From a virus: 23,510 nucleotides of DNA. The stretch spans positions 1 through 23,510 of the IMG/VR virus record IMGVR_UViG_3300013094_000282. The stretch is one strand, 5' to 3'. Position numbers and translations under genes: made by a program. Under the pieces are notes generated by a model, which saw only the letters and a program-made list of their open reading frames with translations, was not told where the DNA came from and did no database searches. The number at the start of each line of letters is the position of its first letter. Position 1 is the stretch's first letter. Shown here one piece after another: positions 161 through 20,369 of the stretch.

Positions 161-168
161 GATAAATA
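161..168 (+). promoter_or_regulatory. T4-type late promoter motif
   Basis: GATAAATA matches the T4 late -10 element TATAAATA at 7 of 8 bases and lies 26 nt before the nuclease start codon. The same octamer recurs before several other genes here (5160, 7671, 10129), which supports a real promoter motif. It implies late expression of the nuclease. Confidence 0.6.
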
Positions 169-194
169 AAATACTAACATAAAGGATGTTAAAA

Positions 195-1028
195 ATGAAA
201 AAACTATTAGCAGGGTTATTTTTCGCCCTAGTAGCCGTAACAAGCACACAAGCCCTTGCTTGGAATCAACGTCAACCATTTCCGCCGGCACAATGTCAAG
301 CACATGCACCCTACGGATTTCCACAGACAGCTCGTCAACTACAACCATTATGCCAACAAGCATATCTAGTTGGCTACGATGCAGCTGCGAAGTTACCAAA
401 CTATGTAATGTATGAATTACTACCACAGAACGCATTAGGTTGTGTAGCACGTACCAACGCATTTGCCGCTAATCAATTTGTGCCTAACGGTGCTGTACCG
501 GGCGACTATGCAGGCACAGGCTACGATAAAGGACACATGGCTCCAGACGGTGACCTATCATGGGATCCACAAGTAGAGTATGAAAGTTTTTTAATGACAA
601 ATATGTCACCACAAGCCGGTTCTTTAAATCGCGGAATTTGGAAATTGTTGGAGACTTCTGTCCGCGGATGGTCAGTCCAGAGAAATCAGAGCTACACAGT
701 TATTGCGGGCGGCTTGTATGGTCCTGGCGATAAGACAATTGGTAAAGGTGTAGTTGTACCACATGGCTTCTACAAGATTGTTATCAATAACGCTACTAAA
801 GAAATCGCAGGTTGGGGATTCCCACACGTTGCTCCATATCCAAACTTGGGCAATGACCTAACTAAATTCCGTGTACCAATCGCTCAGATTGAACAACAAG
901 CTGGTATTAAGTATGCTTTCCCACAAGGTGCAGTTGAACTACAACCAGGTAAAGAATGGCCTGTAGATTTTGGCGCATTAACCAACGCTAAACGTGCTAA
1001 ATGTGGTGCGAACGCTTCTGCAGACTAA
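195..1028 (+). CDS. secreted DNA/RNA non-specific endonuclease (NUC1 family)
   Basis: Predicted sugar-non-specific nuclease of the Serratia/NucA beta-beta-alpha-metal family, cutting DNA and RNA outside the cytoplasm. Residues 1-22 form a classical Sec signal peptide (MKKLL start, hydrophobic core, cleavage after QALA). The active site is DKGH at 111-114 (family DRGH; H114 the likely general base), followed by the block TNMSPQ...LNRGIW at 135-149, with N145 the probable metal ligand and E153 nearby. At 277 aa it is full length for the family. ATG 195 is chosen over the in-frame ATG at 186 because AAAGGA at 181-186 sits 8 nt before 195 and because the signal peptide then starts cleanly. A late promoter motif precedes it. 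An exported nuclease is unusual for a lytic phage: it could act in the periplasm on incoming phage DNA or release nucleotides outside. Family call firm, biological role inferred. Confidence 0.88.
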   Translation: MKKLLAGLFFALVAVTSTQALAWNQRQPFPPAQCQAHAPYGFPQTARQLQPLCQQAYLVGYDAAAKLPNYVMYELLPQNALGCVARTNAFAANQFVPNGAVPGDYAGTGYDKGHMAPDGDLSWDPQVEYESFLMTNMSPQAGSLNRGIWKLLETSVRGWSVQRNQSYTVIAGGLYGPGDKTIGKGVVVPHGFYKIVINNATKEIAGWGFPHVAPYPNLGNDLTKFRVPIAQIEQQAGIKYAFPQGAVELQPGKEWPVDFGALTNAKRAKCGANASAD

Positions 1029-1043
1029 GGAATAAATATTGGT

Positions 1044-3334: not shown

Positions 3335-3601
3335 TTATTTTTTTGCGCCTGTGTTTACAAAAGCATACATTTTTTCCGCTGCTTCAAGAACTTTATCAAG
3401 TCCTGGAAACTCTGGCATACCAACTTGTGTAACGATCTGACCTGTCTTCTCGTCACGTTTTGCTGACATTTCCCAACCAGCGAACTTAGTAGTATATTCA
3501 GCTTGCACTAGGTCTTTGGCCATTGCTAGGATATCTGTACGGATTTCGTAACCGTTTTTATTAAACTTAACTTCTGGTAGTTTTGGTGTATTCTCTGACA
3601 T
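3335..3601 (-). CDS. conserved small phage protein of unknown function
   Basis: An 88-residue acidic/basic soluble protein with a basic C-terminus (GAKK). Motifs EVKFNKNGYEIR (10-21) and GWEMSAKRDE (42-51) recall a small protein common in aquatic T4-like phages, by memory only. Its start lies 2 nt after the stop of the phasin-like gene, so the two form one operon read from the promoter at 3871-3899. The pairing with a phasin-like protein is the only functional hint. A 14-bp palindrome, AAATAATATTATTT (3327-3340), overlaps its stop codon. Confidence 0.8.
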   Translation of the reverse strand: MSENTPKLPEVKFNKNGYEIRTDILAMAKDLVQAEYTTKFAGWEMSAKRDEKTGQIVTQVGMPEFPGLDKVLEAAEKMYAFVNTGAKK

Positions 3602-3603
3602 GA

Positions 3604-3810
3604 TTAAGCTGCCTTCTTGTAAATTGCATCGCCTGCATTTTTAACAAATGCTTGAGCAATATCTAACGTGCTTTGTACTGAGCCTTTAGCAAACTTAGTC
3701 TGTGCATCAACTAGTTTTACAAGTTCTGCTTTGAATTTAGCGTCTTGAACGAATGTCTCAACGAATGTCTTTTTGCTATCTTGGATAGCGTCGATGATTT
3801 GATTAAACAT
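3604..3810 (-). CDS. phasin-like small helical protein
   Basis: A 68-residue, almost wholly helical amphipathic protein. The pattern (FNQIIDAIQDSKKTFVETF, then ELVKLVDAQTKFAKG and AQAFVKNAGDAIYKKA) resembles phasins, which coat polyhydroxyalkanoate granules. It is shorter than usual bacterial phasins (about 110-190 aa), so it may bind lipid or protein surfaces rather than do the full job. AGGAG at 3817-3821 (reverse strand) sits 6 nt before the ATG. First gene of a two-gene operon with a sigma70-like promoter, hence probably expressed early by host polymerase. Phasin relation is moderate; the role is unknown. Confidence 0.72.
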   Translation of the reverse strand: MFNQIIDAIQDSKKTFVETFVQDAKFKAELVKLVDAQTKFAKGSVQSTLDIAQAFVKNAGDAIYKKAA

Positions 3811-7014: not shown

Positions 7015-7236
7015 ATGAAAATCCATCAAATCGTAGGAGCTCCATCAATCATTTTAACAAACGAAGAAAAGTCTTTCGTTAATCATCACGAAAACGAAAT
7101 TCCTATTAAGAATCTCTACGACAGAGACGAAGTCATCGCTCGCAATCTAGTACGCAAGGGCGTATATGAAATAAGTAATGATGACCAGTATATTGTGTTA
7201 AAAAAAGATGCCCACAAACAAAAAACAAATCTTTGA
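7015..7236 (+). CDS. small protein, possible winged-helix fold
   Basis: A 73-residue protein with residues 17-65 reading as helix-helix-strand (LTNEEKSFVNHH, YDRDEVIARNLVRKG, VYEISNDDQYIVLKK). That order recalls a small winged-helix domain seen in phage proteins, but no DNA-contact motif is provable. The start is 1 nt after the previous stop and the end overlaps the next gene by 29 nt in another frame. Function unknown. Confidence 0.65.
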   Translation: MKIHQIVGAPSIILTNEEKSFVNHHENEIPIKNLYDRDEVIARNLVRKGVYEISNDDQYIVLKKDAHKQKTNL

Positions 7237-19925: not shown

Positions 19926-20024
19926 ATACAAGTGCTGTTCGCTGTATAATTACGTAGTAATTTGGGTGCGTGAGAGGCTCATCGTATTGCGAGAGACATG
20001 GATAAGCGAATGGATCTCTCATAG

Positions 20025-20053
20025 TTGACAGACTATTAAAATAAATGTATAAT
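20025..20053 (+). promoter_or_regulatory. perfect-consensus sigma70 promoter of the tmRNA
   Basis: TTGACA (20025-20030), exactly 17 bp, TATAAT (20048-20053): a full match to both boxes. Transcription should begin near 20060. The roughly 100 nt between the PAAR-M15 stop and this promoter hold no gene; a second TATAAT (19945-19950) there lacks a good -35, and GAGAGA/TCTCTC repeats flank a loop at 19991-20020. Confidence 0.85.
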
Positions 20054-20125
20054 AGCAGTAATTGTTGTAATTCCTTTGGATCAAAGGCGCTGTGGACGGC
20101 GGTTCGATTCCGCCCATCTCCACCA

Positions 20126-20182
20126 AAAACATATTCGACCGTAGGCGCGAAACGGTGACATGTAACAGAATGTGTTTTTGAT
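20126..20182 (+). other. intervening (excised) segment of the permuted tmRNA precursor
   Basis: Joins the acceptor CCA to the 5' base of the coding piece. AAAAACATATTC, starting at 20125, pairs with GAATGTGTTTTT near 20168-20179 (one G-U pair), a stem-loop bringing the two ends of the acceptor stem together. In known two-piece tmRNAs such a segment is removed by processing; that is inferred here. Confidence 0.75.
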
Positions 20183-20267
20183 GGGGATGACCTGGTTTCG
20201 ACATGGTGAGATAGTGAAGACGGCAACACAGTAGGCGATGACTGTAAATCAAGCAAAACCTATAAAC

Positions 20268-20300
20268 GCAAACGACAACGTTTACGCATTGGCAGCTTAA
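20268..20300 (+). other. tmRNA tag reading frame, ANDNVYALAA
   Basis: GCA AAC GAC AAC GTT TAC GCA TTG GCA GCT followed by TAA. It starts with the usual AND and ends in ALAA, the ClpXP/ClpAP degron type. TAAACG before it and CGTTTA within it pair around the resume codon region. E. coli carries ANDENYALAA; here the middle is NVY. Confidence 0.92.
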
Positions 20301-20341
20301 CAGCTGACTAGGGTAGGAAATACCTCGTAACAGAAAATACC

Positions 20342-20369
20342 AAAAAGCACCTTCGGGTGCTTTTTCTTT
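20342..20369 (+). terminator. intrinsic terminator of the tmRNA
   Basis: AAAAAGCACC and GGTGCTTTTT form a 10-bp stem with a stable TTCG tetraloop, then TTTTTCTTT. Confidence 0.92.

Follow-up and report, generated by a model that had tools for sequence, protein, structure and literature searches.

The nuclease gene and its active site

The window, i.e. the whole stretch of 23,510 nucleotides analysed here, is a 23.5-kb IMG/VR virus fragment (G000) that carries, close to one end, the gene of a predicted exported nuclease. The features discussed below are the following.

161..168, + strand: T4-type late promoter core GATAAATA (TAAATA at 163-168), by direct reading
182..186, + strand: Shine-Dalgarno sequence AAGGA, by direct reading
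195..1028, + strand: CDS, DNA/RNA non-specific endonuclease, predicted exported, 277 aa with stop (PF01223, PHROG 14168, 114 relatives)
195..260, + strand: predicted Sec signal peptide, residues 1-22, cut predicted after ALA and before W23
294-296, 351-353, 441-443 and 1002-1004, + strand: Cys34, Cys53, Cys83 and Cys270, four invariant mature cysteines
525..536, + strand: predicted catalytic D111-K112-G113-H114, the DKGH form of DRGH
627..653, + strand: predicted metal ligands Asn145 (627-629) and Glu153 (651-653)
1033..1038, + strand: second TAAATA, just after the nuclease and before the next gene (ATG 1044), position only
20015..20367, + strand: permuted (two-piece) tmRNA of the betaproteobacterial type, RF01850 (beta_tmRNA), 176.8 bits

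The protein encoded at 195-1028 matched PF01223 with 139.5 bits (E 1.7e-40, curated cut-off 23) and the PHROG 14168 'nuclease' family with 111.9 bits, and NCBIfam gave no name for it. The open reading frame can be extended to an upstream ATG at 186, but as this codon overlaps the Shine-Dalgarno sequence, ATG 195 is the better start. One of the relatives, L002, comes from the 71.7-kb contig G019, which agrees with the window at 7025 of the 7025 bases compared, and our script assigned AAGGA to the L002 leader too. The gene upstream of the nuclease is not seen whole because the G019 contig, like the window, ends beside the nuclease gene.

Relatives were collected in four scans of viral contigs, which returned 398, 443, 228 and 386 overlapping hits, and the best 80 of each scan were kept. 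This gave 194 loci, 116 of them nonredundant, and 114 distinct proteins. In one scan alone, 398 virus-contig stretches encoded a relative at E <= 1e-3, although the samples overlap and only the best 80 were examined. The relatives come from uncultured virus contigs, and for each of them the ATG closest to the query's start codon was used as the start.

The textbook motif of PF01223 nucleases is DRGH. The first-pass annotation had called the DKGH/Asn catalytic set intact, and the comparison of the distinct relatives (best 80 per scan) agrees with it: DKGHM was found in 113 of the 114 and DRGH in the remaining one, so that DKGH is this clade's form of DRGH, and NRGxWxxxE, which contains the predicted metal ligands, was present in all 114. 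DKGH was also invariant in alignment A2, whose bacterial rows had been found partly by that motif, and the Asn145 and Glu153 columns were invariant in the 33 rows of A2. The four cysteines were invariant in the 30 rows of alignment A1, and after residue 20 all 114 proteins (best 80 per scan) contained exactly four Cys. Four conserved cysteines in the predicted mature protein fit an oxidising compartment.

The first AlphaFold run, for which we used A1 with its near-identical rows and included the signal, was poor (pLDDT 73), and A2 replaced A1. With the bacterial relatives of A2, the model of the mature protein reached a mean pLDDT of 93.4 and a pTM of 0.92. In structure comparisons this model resembled CPS-6/EndoG (Z 29.3, rmsd 1.9 over 216 residues), NucA (2o3b, Z 27.8) and Serratia nuclease (4e3y, Z 26.2). 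The best match among predicted viral structures was a myovirus 'DNA/RNA non-specific endonuclease' with 22% identity, and a sequence search of solved structures agreed, with 18 distinct sequences at E<=0.001. The predicted structure is hence a confident EndoG/NucA fold, that of a beta-beta-alpha metal nuclease. With the PF01223 enzymes (Anabaena NucA, Serratia nuclease, EndoG/CPS-6 and EXOG) it has in common the domain, the fold (Z ~26-29) and the His/Asn/Glu set, whereas identity to the solved structures is only ~21-28% in structure alignments and the window has DKGH where they have DRGH.

Export signal and late promoter

The predicted signal peptide of the window reads MKKLLAGLFFALVAVTSTQALA, with the predicted cut immediately before W. 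All 114 distinct relatives examined (best 80 per scan) have a basic start followed by a hydrophobic core, and in all of them this signal-like stretch is 18-25 residues long and ends before a conserved Trp. The residue at -1 is Ala in 109, Ser in four and Gly in one, and an acidic residue is absent from 113 of the 114 signals, the remaining one having a Glu at residue 19. Among the same relatives, again the best 80 per scan, 105 signals are distinct. Median identity across 1500 random pairs was 0.42 in the signal vs 0.81 in the mature part, and the median pN/pS was 0.58 vs 0.195, although these ratios are rough, as pS is ~0.71 in both parts and thus close to saturation.

A basic n-region, a hydrophobic core, small residues at -1 and -3 and a fast-evolving signal, which are the criteria of Sec export, are therefore all present at the level of sequence. 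A diverged signal joined to a conserved mature enzyme is typical of cleaved export signals, and the examined members are under purifying selection. The clean signal peptide noted by the first-pass annotation thus recurs as a layout in every relative examined, and its proposal that the enzyme acts outside the cytoplasm is borne out insofar as sequence can tell: export of the nuclease out of the cytoplasm is, as an inference, well supported.

Close before the start codon, the window sequence GATAAATA resembles the T4 late promoter TATAAATA, and its position is conserved in relatives. For the count, 112 leaders with 120 nt available were collapsed at 80% identity into 86 leader clusters. TAAATA stood 20-48 nt before the ATG in 55 of the 86 clusters, as compared to 67 of 500 control genes taken from the same loci (Fisher p 7e-22), and was not in place in the other 31. 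Shuffled nuclease leaders had it in place in a mean of 4.6 cases, and an equal stretch further upstream contained it in 3 of the 86 clusters. This analysis supersedes a cruder earlier count, in which NATAAATA occurred within 150 nt in 28 of the 55 leaders of the first scan. The family of the T4 late sigma factor gp55 (phrog_234) was matched in 5 of 18 nuclease-carrying viral records, which may be incomplete; four of the five belong to the largest records and may be closely related to each other. It was not matched in the other 13, G019 among them, which may be explained by their being fragments.

Production of the nuclease late in infection is therefore well supported as a reading of the promoter sequences. 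The late promoter motif had been recognised in the first-pass annotation, which took it to favour a role at or after assembly, and with TAAATA conserved in place the predicted late timing holds. Also of note is that TAAATA is depleted in the window as a whole: it matches 18 times, whereas dinucleotide shuffles contain 30.3 matches on average and 99 of 100 of them reach 18 or more. The motif thus looks as though it were excluded from wrong places.

The leaders of the T4 genes e, soc, 49 and I-TevI are described as having an inverted repeat between the late promoter motif and the ribosome site (PMC3014915), and an inverted repeat lies between TAAATA and the ribosome site in many of the relatives' leaders. 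A usable ribosome site was found in 53 of the 55 TAAATA leaders, with L147 and L217 dropped. The hairpin of 16 of these 53 beat the leader's own shuffles at p<0.05 (paired Wilcoxon p 0.012). An opening change greater than 2.5 kcal/mol was seen in 36% of 50 nuclease leaders vs 33% of 57 others (Mann-Whitney p 0.55), and in the window leader, calculated as L002, opening costs 1.5 kcal/mol in the read-through transcript vs 1.4 kcal/mol in the late one. We therefore rejected an e-type early-silencing hairpin as a feature of the nuclease gene: other genes are alike and the window copy is without it. In another arrangement, a strong hairpin carries TAAATA in its loop; this was seen in L243 (before the gene at locus position 1624), L010, L013, L054 and L237. 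In L243 and L237 a T run follows, as though a single element served as both terminator and late promoter, and in L010, L013, L054 and L237 the hairpin precedes a MARPNPIR protein.

Carrier phages, gene neighbours and relatives

T4 Gp23 was matched in 7 of the 18 viral carrier records, including all six of at least 190 kb. It was not matched in the other 11, for which fragmentation of the records may account. None of the 18 matched PF00589, a search that covers tyrosine integrases and leaves serine integrases outside. The carriers thus look T4-like, and the 'lytic phage' of the first-pass annotation is likely correct, with the qualification that the records may be fragments and that the integrases sought were of the tyrosine type. 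The sample sets of the carrier contigs are, as we take it, freshwater or lake water.

Twelve of the 18 nuclease-carrying records contain a permuted tmRNA above the RF01850 gathering score, and ARAGORN gave ANDNVYALAA as the tag of the one in the window. The beta_tmRNA in the carriers suggests betaproteobacterial hosts, and we consider that the carriers probably infect Betaproteobacteria. Some caution is needed, as tmRNA lineage and host are reported to disagree in Melnitz, a T4-like phage; two-piece tmRNA in aquatic phages has been described before (PMC9004378).

In 16 loci, a T4-type terminase family lies one to three genes downstream of the nuclease, which places the nuclease in a late region in those 16 loci. 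Counting a gene without relatives as a family of its own, there were 44 different upstream families in 109 loci and 52 different downstream families in 111 loci. In 104 loci there were 74 different neighbour pairs, none of them constant, so that a fixed operon partner was rejected, and no fixed lysis-gene neighbour was found among them either. As the neighbours differ this widely, the nuclease gene seems to travel as one unit between the late regions of phages.

Several other genes of these loci are worth recording in their own right. A ferritin-like gene, Dps-type by eye (L183, 4341-4778, and its relatives), lies one or two genes upstream in 12 loci. Two small genes of the window on the - strand, 3604-3810 and 3335-3601, encode proteins that look phasin-like by eye and matched neither Pfam nor PHROG at E 0.01; a family resembling the 3335-3601 gene (family 14) recurs in 15 loci. 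Furthermore, the window genes at 1044, 1922 and 6420 and other locus genes have MRAxEFIxE-like starts, the similarity of 1044 being by eye only. Such head-targeting-like starts were counted in 151 of 1271 distinct starts, by a pattern chosen after the starts had been seen; placed at residue 41, this pattern gave 18. We take these starts to resemble T4 capsid-targeting sequences, and the capsid-targeting motif that we used for comparison of head proteins is an approximation. By analogy with T4, which is described as packing diverse internal proteins by a targeting sequence (PMC3012670), the heads of the nuclease-carrying phages may hold a large variety of packaged proteins. The nuclease itself does not have the form of a T4-type internal head protein, its N-terminus being a predicted Sec signal without an acidic residue in 113 of 114 relatives.

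In a tree of 97 rows, in which the bootstrap is not fully settled and long branches are present, the 18 chosen clade members formed one phage-only branch with a support of 100/100. The clade lies apart from the bacterial rows and from six rows of other phages, and those six need four changes. It also differs from the bacterial rows of A2 in that the phage clade alone keeps a conserved C-terminal tail bearing a Cys. A close donor was not found in any of three collections, for which the scans were all non-exhaustive. An exact-pattern scan of bacterial genome contigs gave 49 loci with at most 41% identity. Matches were found in 32 of 369 genomes of the class of G018, the best with 133.6 bits and 33% identity. 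Among plasmids, 269 of 72,556 records matched, each below 60%, and the best of the matches listed had 35%. By sequence, the nuclease group represents a new clade, specific to phages, within a family of enzymes that is well known.

Nucleases with the same Pfam-type domain as in the window are found in the phages K64-1/RaK2 of Klebsiella, XaC1 of Xanthomonas, YerA41 and GN1 of Yersinia, and Phosso of Sinorhizobium. Those of K64-1, XaC1, YerA41, GN1 and Phosso also have signal-like N-termini, and that of K64-1 is annotated as periplasmic. In contrast to the clade members, these large-phage nucleases have at most ~37% identity and fall outside the clade on the tree. The DNase of the Campylobacter CJIE4 prophage (nucA, CJE1441) and the other CJIE DNases are likewise exported nucleases of this family encoded on phage DNA, whereas the CJIE4 enzyme is 25.5% identical to that of the window and CJIE4 is a temperate element. 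Temperate carriage of the CJIE type did not emerge for the carriers, given the 0 of 18 records for PF00589 (serine integrases outside the search) and the 7 of 18 for Gp23.

Possible roles of the nuclease

The first-pass annotation named three candidate uses, namely the degradation of superinfecting genomes, the clearing of DNA at lysis and the supply of nucleotides to neighbours. The explanation that we favour, to which we would give an even chance, is that a late, Sec-exported nuclease of the EndoG/NucA type removes DNA and RNA at the time of lysis or shortly before it. The enzyme would be a late-expressed product of a T4-like phage whose freshwater hosts are probably Betaproteobacteria. Its precursor would be threaded unfolded through Sec, and the nuclease would fold and form its disulfides in the periplasm, thereby sparing the phage DNA and mRNA in the cytoplasm. 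It would accumulate late in infection and, upon breach of the envelope, cut the host DNA and RNA spilling out, with the result that the lysate would be thinned, virions would not be trapped and nucleotides would be freed. DNA entering the periplasm late would also be cut, which would give some late superinfection exclusion as a side effect. Such an enzyme would most simply serve to remove host nucleic acid at lysis, a role that rests on its predicted timing and export. The known exclusion genes of T4 act early, and hence late timing favours a lysis-phase role.

The main rival is superinfection exclusion proper, in which the nuclease would patrol the periplasm and destroy injected competitor DNA so that late-stage cells are not taken over. 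A periplasmic nuclease would equally be expected under such a role, and both export and the predicted broad specificity fit it. The CJIE DNases, exported Campylobacter prophage relatives (L086), are reported to block DNA uptake by natural transformation (PMC3995785), and DNA crossing the periplasm can therefore be a target. However, phage DNA that enters through a tail tube may at no point be accessible, expression looks late in comparison with the early exclusion genes of T4, and the PADLOC defence models had no match to the nuclease and the two genes after it. We regard this role as rather unlikely. That the nuclease is instead carried on the particle, acting during entry or on the extracellular DNA in which particles get caught, seems quite improbable. 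The annotation of YerA41_018, a distant relative, reads phage particle associated protein, and YerA41 proteomics listed 63 proteins of this kind (PMC7354516), but the list includes DNA polymerases, helicases and other intracellular enzymes, which makes carry-over likely, and the N-terminus of YerA41_018, as annotated, is signal-like too. The predicted Sec signal, without an acidic residue in 113 of 114 relatives and unlike the head-targeting-like starts (151 of 1271), further weakens this alternative. Also very unlikely in our view is a role in nutrient gathering, in which the exported nuclease would break down environmental DNA or that of neighbours, and the infected or nearby cells would gain phosphate and nucleotides. 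The window also encodes ribonucleotide reductase and ThyX, and nucleotide supply therefore matters to the phage; on the other hand, late expression leaves little time for a benefit, and general family scans gave no phosphate or nucleotide uptake match among the window proteins covered.

Clearing at lysis and exclusion might also be combined, in that a T4-like lineage with a dedicated late envelope nuclease would possess a barrier that both frees its progeny and destroys late-entering phage genomes. We think this unlikely; if true, it would be a phage-versus-phage weapon placed in the periplasm rather than in the cytoplasm.

The enzyme type is well known. Purifying selection, export as judged by sequence and a mostly present late promoter together indicate that the enzyme should matter to the phage. 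If the nuclease only thins lysates, the finding is a modest one, whereas exclusion of rival phages would represent a new site of action. A phage nuclease acting in the envelope would bear on the products of lysis, on competition between phages and on the turnover of environmental DNA in lakes.
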